Shown: positions 12,974-20,868 of the stretch, piece by piece
How the letters are laid out: each line of letters opens with the position of its first letter
How positions within the stretch are numbered: the first letter of the stretch is position 1
Origin: a virus
Length of the DNA: 43,860 bases
IMG/VR virus record: IMGVR_UViG_3300012931_000033
Location: 1-43,860 of that record
Strand: one strand, 5' to 3'
The notes under the pieces: model-generated
What the model was told of the DNA's origin: nothing
What the model saw: only the letters and a program-made list of their open reading frames with translations
The model's database searches: none
Made by a program: the position numbers and the translations under genes

Positions 12974-13159
12974 TTAATACTCCACGCCCAGATAGGCGCA
13001 TATCTGCTTTGCCGCGCTGTCGTTGATTACGTGACCGTTGATTACATTGCAAAGCACTGTGTAATTCAGCCTGAGTATTTGCGCGAGTTCCTTCTTGTTC
13101 ATGCCCTTATCTACAAGGGACTTTTCGCAATCCTTCGCCCAAACGGATATATTTTTCAA
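12974..13159 (-). CDS. Cro-like helix-turn-helix regulator
   Basis: A 61-residue XRE-type DNA binder starting at TTG 13159, preceded by GAGGTG. NKKELAQILRLNYTVLCNVI is the helix-turn-helix. As the first gene of the early operon, divergent from the repressor, it occupies the Cro position. It probably binds the dyads in the 13.33-13.38 kb control region. Confidence 0.8.
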   Translation of the reverse strand: MKNISVWAKDCEKSLVDKGMNKKELAQILRLNYTVLCNVINGHVINDSAAKQICAYLGVEY

Positions 13160-13327: not shown

Positions 13328-13356
13328 ATTATATCCAAAGATGTTTTGGATGTCAA
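13328..13356 (-). promoter_or_regulatory. Early lytic promoter (PR-like)
   Basis: On the minus strand TTGACA (13356-13351), exactly 17 bases, then TATAAT (13333-13328): full consensus. Operator 1 fills the spacer. The transcript starts near 13320, leaving a leader of about 160 bases before the Cro-like gene. Confidence 0.88.
13333..13351. promoter_or_regulatory. Repressor operator 1
   Basis: Dyad ATCCAAA-GATGT-TTTGGAT with perfect 7-base arms, lying exactly between the -35 and -10 of the early promoter, so a bound repressor or Cro would block it. Confidence 0.8.
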
Positions 13357-13361
13357 GTAAG

Positions 13362-13382
13362 AATCCAAAGATATTTTGGATT
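13362..13382. promoter_or_regulatory. Repressor operator 2
   Basis: Dyad AATCCAAA-GATAT-TTTGGATT with perfect 8-base arms. Its centre is 30 bases from operator 1, close to three helix turns, so dimers on the same face could cooperate. It overlaps a weak plus-strand -10 candidate (GATATT, 13370-13375, with TTGGAT at 13346-13351), a possible repressor promoter. Confidence 0.8.
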
Positions 13383-13413: not shown

Positions 13414-13776
13414 TTGGCTAAAACGACAAATGAAAAACCGCGCTTTAACATAACAAAGGTGGAGGAATTAATAATGGGGCACGGCTGGAGTAATTCATAT
13501 TTCAGCAGTCTATTTGGAAAGTCTGAAACATGGATAACCGATTGGAAACGTAATAAAAGCCTGCCTGATAAAAACGCGCTTGCTGTTATTGCAAACAAGC
13601 TTGATACAACCATTGAATATCTGACGGACAAAACGGACGTAAAAAATAAGCCCGACGCACAAAGCGACGAGCTTGATAAAGAGGTATTGGATTTACTTAA
13701 ACGCGTTCCTGCCGATAAATGGGACGAGGTTGTGCGTTATCTTCGGTTTCAAGTAAACGAATCAGAAAAGCCTTAA
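13414..13776 (+). CDS. CI-like lysogeny repressor without protease domain
   Basis: A 120-residue XRE repressor from TTG 13414 with AAGGAG upstream. Residues about 12-65 form the helix-turn-helix (GWSNSYFSSLFGKSETWITDW...NALAVIANKLDTTIEYLTDK). The C-terminal 50 residues are helical, probably for dimerisation. There is no S24/LexA-like self-cleavage domain, so induction must come from another factor. A minus-strand gene with an SOS promoter converges on its last 80 bases. Confidence 0.85.
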   Translation: MAKTTNEKPRFNITKVEELIMGHGWSNSYFSSLFGKSETWITDWKRNKSLPDKNALAVIANKLDTTIEYLTDKTDVKNKPDAQSDELDKEVLDLLKRVPADKWDEVVRYLRFQVNESEKP

Positions 13777-13837
13777 AATCCGTTTTTTGGTCTTCCTCCA
13801 ATTTGAGATATATCCGGTAAGCCTCCTCAATGCTCAC
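13697..13837 (-). CDS. SOS-controlled small protein, antirepressor candidate
   Basis: A 46-residue protein from GTG 13837 with AAGGGG upstream. The N-terminus reads SIEEAYRIYLKLEEDQKTDF, a charged amphipathic helix, followed by KAFLIRLLE. Its 3' part lies on the complement of the repressor's last 80 bases. A full-consensus promoter with a LexA box precedes it. Because the repressor has no self-cleavage domain, this protein, its antisense transcript, or both could inactivate the repressor during SOS. Function is inferred from position only. Confidence 0.6.
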   Translation of the reverse strand: MSIEEAYRIYLKLEEDQKTDFKAFLIRLLETEDNAQPRPIYRQERV

Positions 13838-13874
13838 GCATACCCCTTCTTTCGTAATCGCGGCGAGTAAGTCA

Positions 13875-13903
13875 ATAATAGAACGTATGTTCTTTTATGT
13901 CAA
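13875..13903 (-). promoter_or_regulatory. SOS promoter with LexA/DinR box
   Basis: Minus-strand TTGACA (13903-13898), 17-base spacer, TATTAT (13880-13875). The spacer contains GAAC-GTAT-GTTC at 13881-13892, a perfect match to the Gram-positive LexA box core GAAC-N4-GTTC, touching the -10. LexA would repress this promoter until DNA damage. Confidence 0.82.
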
Positions 13904-13943
13904 GCGCTATTTTACAATTATAAACAATTTAACCATCCCCTTA

Positions 13944-14050
13944 GGCAAATAGCGCGGCCCTTCTGGCCGCATATCGTCGGCAACTGGCTGCCATTTTACA
14001 GGCCCTGTAGCTTTGCGTCGCCGCCTTTCGGCGGGTTTGCCTTTATTAAA
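13944..14050 (-). ncRNA. c-di-GMP-I (GEMM) riboswitch with expression platform
   Basis: On the minus strand the aptamer (about 14050-13975) has the GEMM core in order: AAAGGCAAACC, a CGCC-GAAA-GGCG stem with GNRA loop, GACGCAAAGC, a second stem with ACAGGGCCTGT, and GGCAGCCAGTTGCC closing P1. The G preceding GCAAACC matches the form that favours c-di-GMP over cGAMP, if aligned correctly. Downstream are a GCGGCC-GGCCGC hairpin (13970-13954) and UUUGCC (13949-13944), which can pair with the aptamer's own GGCAAA strand and so offers an alternative fold. The first gene downstream is the SOS-controlled 46-residue protein. Confidence 0.88.
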
Positions 14051-14065
14051 TTCAAACACAATAAT

Positions 14066-14094
14066 AATATACAGCCTTGTGGGGCGGAAAACAA
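14066..14094 (-). promoter_or_regulatory. Promoter of the riboswitch transcript
   Basis: Minus-strand TTGTTT (14094-14089), 17-base spacer, TATATT (14071-14066). The start near 14059 would place the aptamer right at the 5' end of the RNA. The surrounding 14060-14230 stretch is very AT-rich and has no gene. Confidence 0.55.
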
Positions 14095-14244
14095 TAGAAA
14101 ACAGTAGAAAATTGTCGATGTAAATTTTTGTCGATTTTTTGGTAATAATTATATTTGTAATATTATAATTTAATATTGACATTAATTAAACGCGGCGTTA
14201 TTATTTTACTGTGATTGTTAGTCATGTTTCAATCACTCTCTTTC

Positions 14245-14280
14245 GCAAAGGCCCGCCGCTCGTCCGGCGGTCTTTTGCTC
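14245..14280 (+). terminator. Terminator-like hairpin before the pilin gene
   Basis: GCAAAGGCCCGCCG, loop, CGGCGGTCTTTTGC: a GC-rich stem with a TCTTTT end on the plus strand. It would stop read-through from the repressor and isolate the pilin unit. Confidence 0.6.
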
Positions 14281-14389
14281 AATTACCATTATTTACATAA
14301 TATTTGCCCGGAGGTATTTATTACCGTTATTTTTAGTCGATATAATAATCGAAAATAAAAATTTCTAAAAGAGAAGGGGACACTAAACC

Positions 14390-14785
14390 ATGAAGACAAT
14401 GAAAAAATTCAAGGCAGGTCAGCAAGGCTTCACGCTCATAGAGCTGATCGTAGTTATCGCGGTTCTGGCAATTCTGGCGGTGATAATATTACCGAGATTT
14501 ATGGGCTTTACGGAAAGCGCAAGTGAAAAGGCGGCATTAAGCGATGCGAGAAACGTTCTTACTGCTATGGAGGCGCAACTTGCATCTGATCCTGGTTTGG
14601 CACCAGACGATATTGATGGTGCAGATTTAGCGGACTATGTTACTTTAAACGGTGATTTTACAAATAAATCTGCCGGAGATACCGTTTCATTTGAGTATGT
14701 TTTAACATCGGGAGGAAAAACATATACAGCATCTGTAATTGATGGAGTTTTGCAACCCGATGTTGCTATTGGCACTGCATCCTAA
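14390..14785 (+). CDS. Type IV pilin-like (prepilin) protein
   Basis: A 131-residue class III/type IV prepilin. A short basic leader ends at GFTLIELIVV, where prepilin peptidase cuts after Gly and the Glu at mature +5 is present. The hydrophobic helix (GFTLIELIVVIAVLAILAVI) is followed by a globular domain of about 95 residues. AAGGGG precedes ATG 14390. It is a cargo gene between repressor and integrase; no pilus assembly genes are present. It may enter the host pilus or pseudopilus and change attachment, DNA uptake or phage adsorption. Confidence 0.85.
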   Translation: MKTMKKFKAGQQGFTLIELIVVIAVLAILAVIILPRFMGFTESASEKAALSDARNVLTAMEAQLASDPGLAPDDIDGADLADYVTLNGDFTNKSAGDTVSFEYVLTSGGKTYTASVIDGVLQPDVAIGTAS

Positions 14786-14786
14786 C

Positions 14787-15080
14787 ATGAAAAAGCTATT
14801 CATTTCAATATTTATACTGACAATCGTTGACGCTGTATGTACCGCCATAGGCGTGCATCTGGGCGTTGTCGAGGAAGCTAACCCGTTTTTCCAGCGGGTG
14901 GTAATGGCTCAGCCGGTTCTCGCCTCGACCGCAGTATGTATCGGCGTGGGCGGCATACTGTATCTGGTCTACAGATTGCGGGATAAGGTCAGGTTTATGG
15001 TACCGCTGATGGTTGGCCTGCTGATTGTCAAACTCGTGGTTGTCGGTATACATTTGGAATGGATGGCACAGGTAATATAA
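14787..15080 (+). CDS. DUF5658-like integral membrane protein
   Basis: A 97-residue protein from ATG 14787, directly after the pilin stop. Three hydrophobic segments are predicted (about 2-22, 42-60 and 68-90). The motif DAVCTAIGVHLGVVEEANPFF near the first helix is typical of DUF5658 proteins. Co-transcribed with the pilin, perhaps helping its insertion; this is inference. Confidence 0.72.
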   Translation: MKKLFISIFILTIVDAVCTAIGVHLGVVEEANPFFQRVVMAQPVLASTAVCIGVGGILYLVYRLRDKVRFMVPLMVGLLIVKLVVVGIHLEWMAQVI

Positions 15081-15129
15081 AAATAGGCCCCGCTTCATTT
15101 GAGGTGGGGCTTTGTGCAAAGGAGGGCTT

Positions 15130-16266
15130 ATGCTTTGCATTAATAAAAAGTGTGCCGCCGAATTGCCGGAGGGCGCGGCCTATTGTCACCGCTGCGGGCG
15201 AAAGCAGGACACGCCGAAACGCAAACCCAAAACAAGAGGCAACGGCACAGGCACGGCATATAGACGAGGCGAAACCTGGACGGCGGCGGTTGTTGTTGGA
15301 AAGAAAATCGTTGACGGTAAAAAAGTGTTGATAAGGCCGACGCGCGGCGGCTTTGAAACGAAGCGCGACGCATTGGCTTACATTGTTGAGCTGCGAGAAC
15401 GGCGCGACGGTAAAAAACCCATATCGGTAACACTGGAATCAATGTGGGAAACCTATAAAAAAGGCGCATATAAAAAGCTATCTGCAAACAAGAAGACCGC
15501 ATATGAGAAAGCCCATGAACGCATGAGCGATATTTTTTTGCGCGACATTACCATACTGACGGTTTCTGATATTCAGGACTGCGTTGATAAAAACGCAAAG
15601 ACCTTTTACCCGGCGCGGGAAATGAAATCTGTGCTTTCCCACTGTTACCAGCTTGCGGCGGCGCAGCAGATTGTATTGTCCAATCTATCTCGCTTTATTG
15701 TTCTTCCACCGCTTGACGCGGAGGAAACGATGCCATTTAACGAAACTGAGCTTAATAACCTGTGGGCTGCATACGGCAAGGGAGATAAAATAGCCGGGTA
15801 CGCGCTGATTATGATCTACAGCGGCATGATGCCGGGTGAATTGTTTATTGCCAAAAAAGATATGATTGACTGGAGCAATCAATCTATATTGGGTTGCGGA
15901 CTTAAAACAAAAAAGAGAAAATCAACGCCGATTGTCATAGCTAATTTTATGATGCCGGTGCTTAAAGATTTATGCGACTACGCGCCCGGAGAAATGCTAT
16001 GCGCATTAGTCCGCGATGATTTTTACGCCGCATTTAAGGTTATGATAAAGCGCTGCGAATGCAGGGAAGGTCTTTCTCCGTACTCCTGCCGTCACACGAC
16101 GGCCACGGCTTTAGCCCTGGGCAATATAGCGCCGTCCGTTATCCAAGAAATTATGAGGCAGACTAAATTTACCACGACGCAAAAGTATATCCACATCGAC
16201 ACGGCAAAATCACTCGCGGCGGTTAATACGCTCCGGCAGGATAAAGATAAAGAATCGGCCTCTTAA
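15130..16266 (+). CDS. int: Tyrosine recombinase (phage integrase)
   Basis: A 378-residue integrase from ATG 15130 (AAAGGAGGG upstream). It has an N-terminal zinc ribbon (CINKKC...CHRCGRK), an arm-binding domain (RGETWTAAVVVG), an SAM-like core domain and the catalytic domain. PYSCRHTTATALA carries the HxxR-type block and QKYIHID the Tyr nucleophile. The Arg I position reads SGMMPGEL (Met instead of Arg) and the late His/Trp position reads RQTKFT (Gln). attP follows within 130 bases. Confidence 0.92.
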   Translation: MLCINKKCAAELPEGAAYCHRCGRKQDTPKRKPKTRGNGTGTAYRRGETWTAAVVVGKKIVDGKKVLIRPTRGGFETKRDALAYIVELRERRDGKKPISVTLESMWETYKKGAYKKLSANKKTAYEKAHERMSDIFLRDITILTVSDIQDCVDKNAKTFYPAREMKSVLSHCYQLAAAQQIVLSNLSRFIVLPPLDAEETMPFNETELNNLWAAYGKGDKIAGYALIMIYSGMMPGELFIAKKDMIDWSNQSILGCGLKTKKRKSTPIVIANFMMPVLKDLCDYAPGEMLCALVRDDFYAAFKVMIKRCECREGLSPYSCRHTTATALALGNIAPSVIQEIMRQTKFTTTQKYIHIDTAKSLAAVNTLRQDKDKESAS

Positions 16267-16397: not shown

Positions 16398-16460
16398 GGC
16401 GGAGAAGGAGAGATTTGAACTCTCGCGCCGGTTACCCGGCCTACGCCCTTAGCAGGGGCG
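16397..16460 (-). other. attP core: 3' part of tRNA-Ser(GCU)
   Basis: On the minus strand 64 bases match a tRNA-Ser from the anticodon arm (CGCCC-CTGCTAA-GGGCG, anticodon GCU) through the long variable arm, the T-arm (GAGAG-TTCAAAT-CTCTC) and acceptor end CTTCTCCG-CCA. The 5' acceptor strand and D-arm are missing, so this is not a functional tRNA. It restores the 3' half of the host gene on integration. Confidence 0.85.
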
Positions 16461-18913: not shown

Positions 18914-20197
18914 TTAGCGCCGCCTTTCATACTCCTCTTGCGCCCACTCTGCTAAAGGCGGCTTCGCGTCGCGGTATCGGAAGAGTTCAAATTCATTTCC
19001 TGCCGTCAGCGCGCACTGTTCCGCGTGTGAGCGTATTGACATAAGGCCGTCGTTTTCCACATGCCAGCCCGGTTCCCGCTGTGGCAGCCGGTGCCGTGCG
19101 TGCCATTCCTCCACCGCATAATACATATCCCACGTATAGTTTGGCCTGACGCCCGCGAGCGGCGTGCAAGGCTGCGGTATCAGCGGCGTCCATTTTATGC
19201 GAAGTGAAATATTTTTCTTTAACGGCAAAGACATAAGCCTGTCCATCATGACCGACCACTCGTCAAAATCCTCTTGCGTTTCCCACGGGTACCCAATGAT
19301 CATAAACATTTTAAAGTTGCAGTGCCCGCGGTCTATAAATAGTGAAAAATAATCACGGATCATCTGATCCGTGATTGGCTTATTAACTTTTCGGCGCGTG
19401 GATTCCGTCAGCCCGTCTATGCCCACGCGTATCAGGTGATTATTTTTAAGGGGCGGCGGATTCCTTAAAACGGATTCTATGCGCATCGACGAAAATGCGG
19501 CCGAATATCCTTTGTCCCCCAGATATTTATACATTTCCGCATAGGCCGGATGACTTGCTTCGTCCGGCGCGTAAAAGTTTATTTTCCGCGTCTTGCCGGT
19601 TTCGCAGGCGTCTATCATTTTTTCAAGGTGTTCTCGCTTATACGGGCGATAGGGCAAGCTGTTTCCCAGCTCACAGTAATCGCACCGATAAGGGCATCCG
19701 CGGGCCATTTCGATGTACCATGCCGCCGATAGCGTGCCGGGGCGATTAAGATATGGCGGATTGTCCGGCAATGGGCGTTCAATATTTGCACTCGGAACCT
19801 TGCGCCCAGGCTCCCAGTCTTTACACATGATCGTTCCGGGCAAAGCAGACAGCGCGCTTATATCGTCCGTATCCTCAATCAGCCGCAGCGCCGCTTTAAT
19901 CCAAGACTCTCCCTCGCCGATGCAGATCGCGTCTGCATAAGGTATGCATGGGCGCGGGTTGTTTTGCATCGGATGGCCGCCGACGATACGCCACCTTGCC
20001 CGCTTCGGTGCGGCGGCAAGGCGCGGAAAATCCGTACAATGATGTACGCTGGCCAGCTCCACATCATACCCGACACGCGGGCCGTCCGCGACGTCAATAT
20101 GATAACCCGCCAATTCCGCATGATGCCGCACATAAAACGCGCCTATGCTGCCCTTATCCTGTCTTTCGCAAACCTCAAACATGCATATTTTCAACAC
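18914..20197 (-). CDS. Radical SAM protein with B12-binding-like N-terminus, in the type IV operon
   Basis: A protein of about 427 residues. Residues 1-100 resemble a cobalamin-binding-type domain (IVGGHP near 73, then YADAICIGEGESW). The radical SAM cluster motif CPYRCDYC (Cys 168, 172, 175) follows, then NFYAPDEASH, VGIDGLTESTRRKV and FMIIGYPWE, typical of the TIM barrel. GTG 20197 (GAGGTG six bases upstream, overlapping the csf3 stop by 7 bases) is preferred; TTG 20194 and ATG 20182 are alternatives. The frame open to 20371 overlaps csf3 and is not real. It uses SAM and a 4Fe-4S cluster; the substrate is unknown. Confidence 0.82.
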   Translation of the reverse strand: MLKICMFEVCERQDKGSIGAFYVRHHAELAGYHIDVADGPRVGYDVELASVHHCTDFPRLAAAPKRARWRIVGGHPMQNNPRPCIPYADAICIGEGESWIKAALRLIEDTDDISALSALPGTIMCKDWEPGRKVPSANIERPLPDNPPYLNRPGTLSAAWYIEMARGCPYRCDYCELGNSLPYRPYKREHLEKMIDACETGKTRKINFYAPDEASHPAYAEMYKYLGDKGYSAAFSSMRIESVLRNPPPLKNNHLIRVGIDGLTESTRRKVNKPITDQMIRDYFSLFIDRGHCNFKMFMIIGYPWETQEDFDEWSVMMDRLMSLPLKKNISLRIKWTPLIPQPCTPLAGVRPNYTWDMYYAVEEWHARHRLPQREPGWHVENDGLMSIRSHAEQCALTAGNEFELFRYRDAKPPLAEWAQEEYERRR

Positions 20198-20868
20198 TCC
20201 GCGCACCTCGGCATGTAGCACGTTACCTGATTGCAGGCCTTCCACGCGGGCGGGCGGATCGCGCAGTCGCGGATGACATACCCGCTCAGATCGTGCCCCG
20301 CATCCTCGCCAACCGGTAGCGGTCGCATAAGACCGTATTTGTCGCTCCATGTGCTCCAGTCTTCCGGCCACGGCTCAACGATCCAATCCCGGACAGCGCC
20401 CCATCCGGCTGCAGGCTTTTTGCCGACGGCGGGTATATATGACAGCAGCTCCCTCACCTTGTCGATCGTCCCGTAACCGTAAAATTCTATGTCGCTCACG
20501 GTATGTATGACCTGCGGCATGCGGTAAGCGCGCATCGTTCCCGTGCTTGTGGTGATTTTGCCACCGCCCTCAAGGTATTTTATGTCCTTGTCCCAGTCGG
20601 GGCGCTTATTCCAGTATTCGATATGCGTACCGTAATCTTTATAAAACCCTACCGACGCGGCATATCTGTTATTCGGCAACTGCCGAAGCGGCAAGCCGTA
20701 ATAGCCCGTTGCTTCCTCTTTCTGCTCCCCGGTCAGCACCTTTGGGGCGTATTTTAAAAACCACGCGTGGTATAGGATGCCGTCTAAAAAAAATAAGCCG
20801 TCGGCGGAGTTGACGCGGCCGTCGAGCAAGCGGCATGTTACCTTAAACGGTTCGGTCTCCGATCTCAT
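20191..20868 (-). CDS. csf3: Csf3/Cas5-like RAMP protein, type IV CRISPR effector
   Basis: A 225-residue RAMP-type protein. ADGLFFLDGILYHAWF near residues 22-37 is the Csf3 hallmark (DxxxxLDGxL). SVGFYKDYG and TMRAYRMPQ follow, and a glycine-rich loop near 149-160 (GKKPAAGWGAVRDW). The tail has CNQVTCYMPRCAEC, a possible metal site. In type IV complexes Csf3 caps the 5' end of the guide RNA. ATG 20868 overlaps the csf2 stop (ATGA). Confidence 0.8.
   Translation of the reverse strand: MRSETEPFKVTCRLLDGRVNSADGLFFLDGILYHAWFLKYAPKVLTGEQKEEATGYYGLPLRQLPNNRYAASVGFYKDYGTHIEYWNKRPDWDKDIKYLEGGGKITTSTGTMRAYRMPQVIHTVSDIEFYGYGTIDKVRELLSYIPAVGKKPAAGWGAVRDWIVEPWPEDWSTWSDKYGLMRPLPVGEDAGHDLSGYVIRDCAIRPPAWKACNQVTCYMPRCAEC

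Follow-up and report, generated by a model that had tools for sequence, protein, structure and literature searches.

Temperate phages listen to DNA damage, to peptides, and to quorum signals. Phages with non-cleavable repressors are served by SOS-controlled antirepressors, as in coliphage 186 (Tum) and the Salmonella Gifsy phages. To our knowledge, there is no parallel for an SOS antirepressor with a riboswitch upstream.

Phage-borne c-di-GMP riboswitches are documented in the Clostridioides difficile phages phiCD630-1 and phiCD630-2 (PMC7699646; PMC11477304; PMC3649979). In these phages, a riboswitch promoter (P1) lies upstream of a stronger promoter (P2) that drives an antisense antitoxin RNA (PMC7699646). 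C. difficile also carries an orphan c-di-GMP-I riboswitch with no known function (PMC11477304). In vibriophage VP882, the lysis-lysogeny outcome responds to the host c-di-GMP pool via an unknown effector (PMC11315295). Lastly, an antisense mode of action has been predicted for c-di-GMP-I riboswitches, among them one in Paenibacillus that opposes an XRE regulator (PMC9943018). The riboswitch class is a known one; its wiring into a phage immunity region would be new, and full-text searches of largely open-access literature turned up no c-di-GMP riboswitch in such a region. Here, we describe a c-di-GMP-I aptamer that points into the immunity region of a temperate phage.

The stretch of DNA analyzed (the window), 43,860 bases long, comprises an entire IMG/VR virus record and appears to be a complete temperate siphophage. 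Its right side encodes the terminase, portal, head, tail, and tape-measure proteins, and its left side a DnaB-like helicase, RecT, and an exonuclease. The features of the immunity and integration region are as follows.

12974-13159, minus strand: Cro-like early regulator that follows the lytic promoter (PHROG 1468, HTH_26)
13328-13356, minus strand: early lytic promoter, TTGACA-17-TATAAT (12 of 12 positions), with an operator as its spacer
13334-13350 and 13364-13380: two perfect repressor operators, TCCAAAN5TTTGGA, read from the sequence
13414-13776, plus strand: Cro/C1-type repressor of 120 amino acids (PHROG 8 transcriptional regulator, E 1.9e-8; weak HTH_3)
13697-13837, minus strand: 46-amino-acid ORF with a GTG start, from the ORF list; putative SOS-induced antirepressor
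13875-13903, minus strand: SOS promoter of the 46-amino-acid gene, TTGACA-17-TATTAT (11 of 12 positions)
13881-13892: LexA-type box GAACATACGTTC, within the spacer of the SOS promoter
15112-16266, plus strand: tyrosine integrase (Pfam Phage_integrase)
about 16400-16460: attP core, corresponding to the 3' part of tRNA-Ser (about 90% identical to tRNA-Ser genes in phage records)

No whole tRNA gene was found within the 43,860-base window. The attP core is internal, with phage genes on both sides, which suggests an excised or circularized phage as the source of the sequence rather than the edge of an integrated prophage. The integrase shares 45% identity with MT835551 and 32% with Faecalibacterium phage Aster, and a relative at 49% identity occurs in a further genome. 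These relatives point to gut Oscillospirales-type hosts. A search of IMG/VR for relatives of the pilin, the repressor, and the integrase found none. The right arm also encodes a radical SAM protein (18914-20371, minus strand; 33.5 bits against a cut-off of 29.5).

The TCCAAAN5TTTGGA motif occurs just twice in the window, and two copies were reached in none of 100 shuffles. The repressor gives helix-turn-helix signals only, with no S24 protease (self-cleavage) domain, so SOS induction would need a separate protein. The 46-amino-acid ORF is placed to supply one. Its promoter is one of four in the window that fit this pattern with no mismatch, and GAACATACGTTC, in the spacer, is the sole GAACN4GTTC in 43.9 kb. 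The ORF has a good Shine-Dalgarno sequence (AGAAGGGG, 13850-13843), is the sole minus-strand gene ahead of the aptamer, and overlaps the 3' end of the repressor gene in antisense. The genes ahead had been named as an SOS-controlled 46-residue protein and, in antisense, the repressor, and this description proved accurate.

By analogy with the SOS antirepressors in the literature, inactivation of the repressor is the most likely function of the 46-amino-acid protein; its position, its control by LexA, and a repressor with no protease domain all suggest this role. Like Tum and the Gifsy antirepressors, it is a small protein whose promoter has a LexA box and whose gene adjoins that of a repressor lacking a protease; unlike them, it has no detectable sequence relationship to any known antirepressor. 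Searches of Pfam, PHROG, phages, and 394 order-level genomes gave no credible relative. AlphaFold predicts a two-helix hairpin (H3-12, H15-33; mean pLDDT 76.5), with residues 1-30 confident, and a fold search with this model gave no match. The repressor model has low confidence (52.8) and ends in a similar hairpin. Descent of the small protein from a copy of the repressor C-terminal hairpin was considered and set aside: the two share the two-helix shape, with sequence similarity that is not significant.

The aptamer lies to the right of the SOS promoter, on the same strand. It and the elements between the two are listed below.

13976-14051, minus strand: c-di-GMP-I (GEMM-I) riboswitch aptamer, RF01051 (cmscan, 65.7 bits against a gathering cut-off of 35)
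14036-14042, minus strand: AGGCAAA, an aptamer strand and possible capture target of the platform, read from the sequence
13954-13970, minus strand: hairpin GCGGCC-AGAAG-GGCCGC, then GCUAUUUGCC, a poor U tract
13943-13949, minus strand: UUUGCCU, a 7-nt match to the complement of AGGCAAA
13904-13955, minus strand: perfect 9-bp inverted repeat, GCGCUAUUU (13955-13947) and AAAUAGCGC (13912-13904), with a 34-nt loop

The original prediction of an almost complete GEMM aptamer on the minus strand was borne out by Infernal with RF01051, which returned a full-length match covering model positions 1-87 of 87 (E 8.9e-11 over the whole window). It is the single match above threshold in an Rfam scan of the whole window. 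P2 is capped by a GAAA loop, i.e., a GNRA tetraloop. The ligand contacts are assigned to residues of the aptamer from established knowledge of the class. In GEMM-I aptamers, the first contact position is G in the c-di-GMP type (GEMM-Ia) and A in the cGAMP type (GEMM-Ib). Here it is G, the first of GGCAAA, which argues against a cGAMP-sensing GEMM-Ib. The GGC variant (RF03167) was also rejected, with a score of 56.8 below its cut-off of 59 and an A where its consensus has G; GGCAAA and GACGCAAAGC can be read directly, and the aptamer has CAAAG, not the CGAAG of the variant. Together, these features support assignment to the canonical c-di-GMP-I class, with c-di-GMP rather than cGAMP as the probable ligand.

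A 36-base core of the aptamer is identical at 35 bacterial genome loci, mostly in Lachnospiraceae and other Clostridia. The phage copy resembles other RF01051 riboswitches in sequence and structure, and belongs to a Firmicutes subtype whose P3 (GGGCCUGUAAAAUGGCAGCC) also occurs in chromosomal leaders. It differs from them in two ways: (i) it has no intrinsic terminator or Shine-Dalgarno sequence directly behind it; (ii) it sits in a phage immunity region, ahead of an SOS promoter. A standard scan found no intrinsic terminator within 200 nt of the aptamer, compared with terminators in 27 of 36 chromosomal leaders with the same aptamer subtype. The hairpin at 13954-13970 satisfies the terminator test only when four T in eight are allowed. 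At the platform, directly behind the aptamer, there is neither an ORF Shine-Dalgarno sequence nor a gene start; the Shine-Dalgarno sequence of the 46-amino-acid gene lies 126 nt past the aptamer, and the modeled change in its exposure is weak.

A downstream UUUGCC able to compete for the P1 strand had been proposed. It is present at 13949-13944 and extends to UUUGCCU, giving seven bases complementary to AGGCAAA at 14042-14036; its occurrence is near chance, since a 7-nt complement was reached in 117 of 2000 dinucleotide shuffles (~6%). In models of the nascent RNA, free AGGCAAA pairs with UUUGCCU with a probability of up to 0.76 (transcribed to 13935), and the pairing drops to ~0 when the aptamer fold is enforced. 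The inverted repeat overlaps UUUGCC and abuts the -35 element of the SOS promoter; a 9-bp repeat was reached in 31 of 2000 shuffles. The fold of the whole leader is no better than that of shuffles (z -0.13). The proposed promoter, placed so that the aptamer forms the 5' end of the RNA, was not confirmed: the best candidates match 8-9 of 12 positions, which is at chance level (equaled by 143 of 1000 shuffles) and contrasts clearly with the four promoters without mismatch found at other places in the window. Between the divergent promoters, at 14085-14140 (minus strand), are direct repeats of ATCGACAA and of TTTTCTAYTG, which are possible protein-binding sites.

How would such a sensor be connected to immunity? 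The argument is one of geometry: a riboswitch transcript has no other destination than the immunity region, where it would meet the SOS gene first. The leader transcript would begin with the aptamer, run leftward into the 46-amino-acid gene, and continue across the repressor gene in antisense. A likely design is one of two inputs on a single induction gene. The response to damage would come from the LexA-repressed promoter at 13875-13903, and a weaker riboswitch transcript from farther upstream would add c-di-GMP control of the RNA that reaches, or is translated from, the 46-amino-acid gene; the protein would then inactivate the protease-less repressor. Because the leader RNA is antisense to the repressor mRNA and would also encode the antirepressor, more leader transcript should favor lysis. 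We give even chances to a c-di-GMP input layered on the SOS antirepressor in this way, whether as an ON or an OFF switch. Folding models lean slightly, and weakly, toward an ON switch in which the ligand would free the Shine-Dalgarno sequence of the 46-amino-acid gene.

This arrangement can be compared with each of the described systems. As in Cdi1_4 and Cdi1_5 of phiCD630-1/2, which are associated with the antitoxin RNAs RCd11 and RCd12, a phage-borne c-di-GMP-I riboswitch lies upstream of a stronger promoter on the same strand (PMC7699646), and the transcript would be antisense to another gene. The targets differ: in the C. difficile phages it is a type I toxin that belongs to the lysis module, and here it would be the SOS gene and repressor. 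A terminator separates the riboswitch from P2 in phiCD630-1/2, and none is evident in this phage. Set against the Cdi1_4 module, P2 is strong in this phage and P1 is at chance level. In VP882, the sensor is thought to be a host effector (PMC11315295), whereas the input proposed for this phage would be an RNA sensor that it encodes itself. In the Paenibacillus case, a c-di-GMP-I transcript likewise opposes a gene of the Cro/C1 family, although that gene encodes a chromosomal regulator rather than a phage immunity repressor; both cases are computational predictions (PMC9943018).

The immunity module does not appear to be common to sister phages. These were found via the terminase, mostly at 56-73% identity, and several of the records are fragments. 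An RF01051 match is present in 0 of 17 sister-phage records (several fragmentary), and just one of the records has a repressor match, a marginal one. A strict GEMM pattern search of IMG/VR gave no match. A general GEMM-I pattern gave 59 loci, many in C. difficile-type phages and others in host-flank or surface-protein contexts; the order riboswitch, SOS gene, repressor was absent among the matches listed for these 59 loci.

Several other GEMM-I records were noted in passing. MT835802.1 (L002), filed in GenBank as a phage, was considered as a phage with the same aptamer and rejected, since it is apparently a piece of a bacterial chromosome in which tandem GEMM-I riboswitches precede a gene for a CAP-domain protein. 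Two very large viral records (L003 and L016; 223 and 237 kb) carry GEMM-I riboswitches, in tandem in L016, that precede a series of secreted proteins; these have TYAWFS motifs in their signal peptides and are reminiscent of surface proteins of the TasA/SipW type. In five viral or host-flank records (L023, L035, L042, L045, and L054), GEMM-I lies just before single-domain CheY-like response regulators, and L035 also has a LexA-like gene near the riboswitch. Two metagenome records (L011 and L024) share the same one-strand order of integrase, XRE regulator, GEMM-I riboswitch, and a 502-amino-acid ORF.

On its other side, the riboswitch adjoins cargo.

14176-14204, plus strand: divergent promoter toward the pilin gene, TTGACA-17-TATTAT (promoter scan)
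14211-14389, plus strand: structured 5' leader of the pilin gene (fold z-score -4.73, reached in 0 of 200 shuffles)
14390-14785, plus strand: type IV pilin-like cargo protein (Pfam N_methyl, 34.9 bits against a cut-off of 21.2; phage pilin PHROG 3433)
14787-15080, plus strand: DUF5658 membrane protein (58.1 bits against a cut-off of 25.2)

The pilin and DUF5658 genes form cargo between the repressor and the integrase, and DUF5658 relatives occur twice in the sister phage record L162. The pilin leader, for which there is no Rfam match (14211-14389), contains a terminator-like hairpin at 14253-14270 and a 15-bp hairpin that ends in TCTTTT; with the strong hairpin removed, its z-score is only -1.4. 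In the predicted fold, CUCUCUUU pairs with the Shine-Dalgarno region of the pilin gene. In host type IV pilus operons encoding PilB, PilT, and PilC, GEMM-I riboswitches lie directly upstream of pilins (L134, 7201, minus strand; L108, 2286-2209).

This neighborhood raises a serious rival, namely that the riboswitch came with host type IV pilus DNA and lost its gene, so that it would still bind c-di-GMP as a vestige and control nothing important. The rival draws its force from the host relative L134, an Oscillospirales genome, where a GEMM-I riboswitch immediately precedes the pilin that is closest to that of the phage (62% identity over the N-terminal 61 residues). The pilin stretch is also lower in G+C than the phage (0.37-0.43 versus 0.49-0.53), the repressor-integrase slot of related prophages is filled by other cargo (e.g., lipoprotein-like genes in L131 and L133), and no canonical platform or gene start follows right behind the aptamer. 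However, the phage riboswitch has its back to the pilin gene, the intact aptamer (65.7 bits) shows no signs of decay, and the short stretch between aptamer and SOS promoter contains structured elements. We consider a hitchhiking origin of this kind unlikely, while taking it seriously.

A stand-alone c-di-GMP-responsive small RNA, ending near 13945 and acting in trans or as an antisense RNA or decoy, is less probable still. The GC-rich hairpin at 13954-13970 with its few U could serve as a weak 3' end, and C. difficile has both the orphan c-di-GMP-I riboswitch and riboswitch-antitoxin RNAs (PMC11477304). Yet the U tract after the hairpin is poor, no toxin ORF was recognized opposite, and action in trans on the pilin leader was rejected, since 22 of 60 shuffles pair with it as well. 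Chance or an assembly artefact, to which the single record of this phage might lend weight, is highly improbable given the E value in the window, which already refutes chance for the aptamer, and an attP, operators, and LexA box that cohere with one real phage.

The sensor is thus secure, and its wiring to the immunity region is not. Where a second messenger had been proposed as an input to the lysis-lysogeny decision, the aptamer stands, as does its orientation toward the immunity region, and an effect on the decision itself is plausible only; a canonical platform, a strong riboswitch promoter, copies in sister phages, and an antirepressor relative of the 46-amino-acid protein are all lacking. 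The fuller reading of the layered input, in which the phage RNA would sense c-di-GMP and thereby directly determine the threshold at which the SOS antirepressor and repressor switch, such that the surface, biofilm, and type IV pilus state of the host would tune lysogeny, is one that we hold tentatively, at somewhat below even chances.

If the riboswitch is wired to immunity, the phage would encode a direct sensor of c-di-GMP that can be mutated, and one RNA mutation would suffice to test the idea that phages read the lifestyle of their host. Through the pilin cargo beside it, the same c-di-GMP signal would be linked to the pilus. A gut-type temperate phage may therefore read the surface or biofilm state of its host when choosing between dormancy and lysis.
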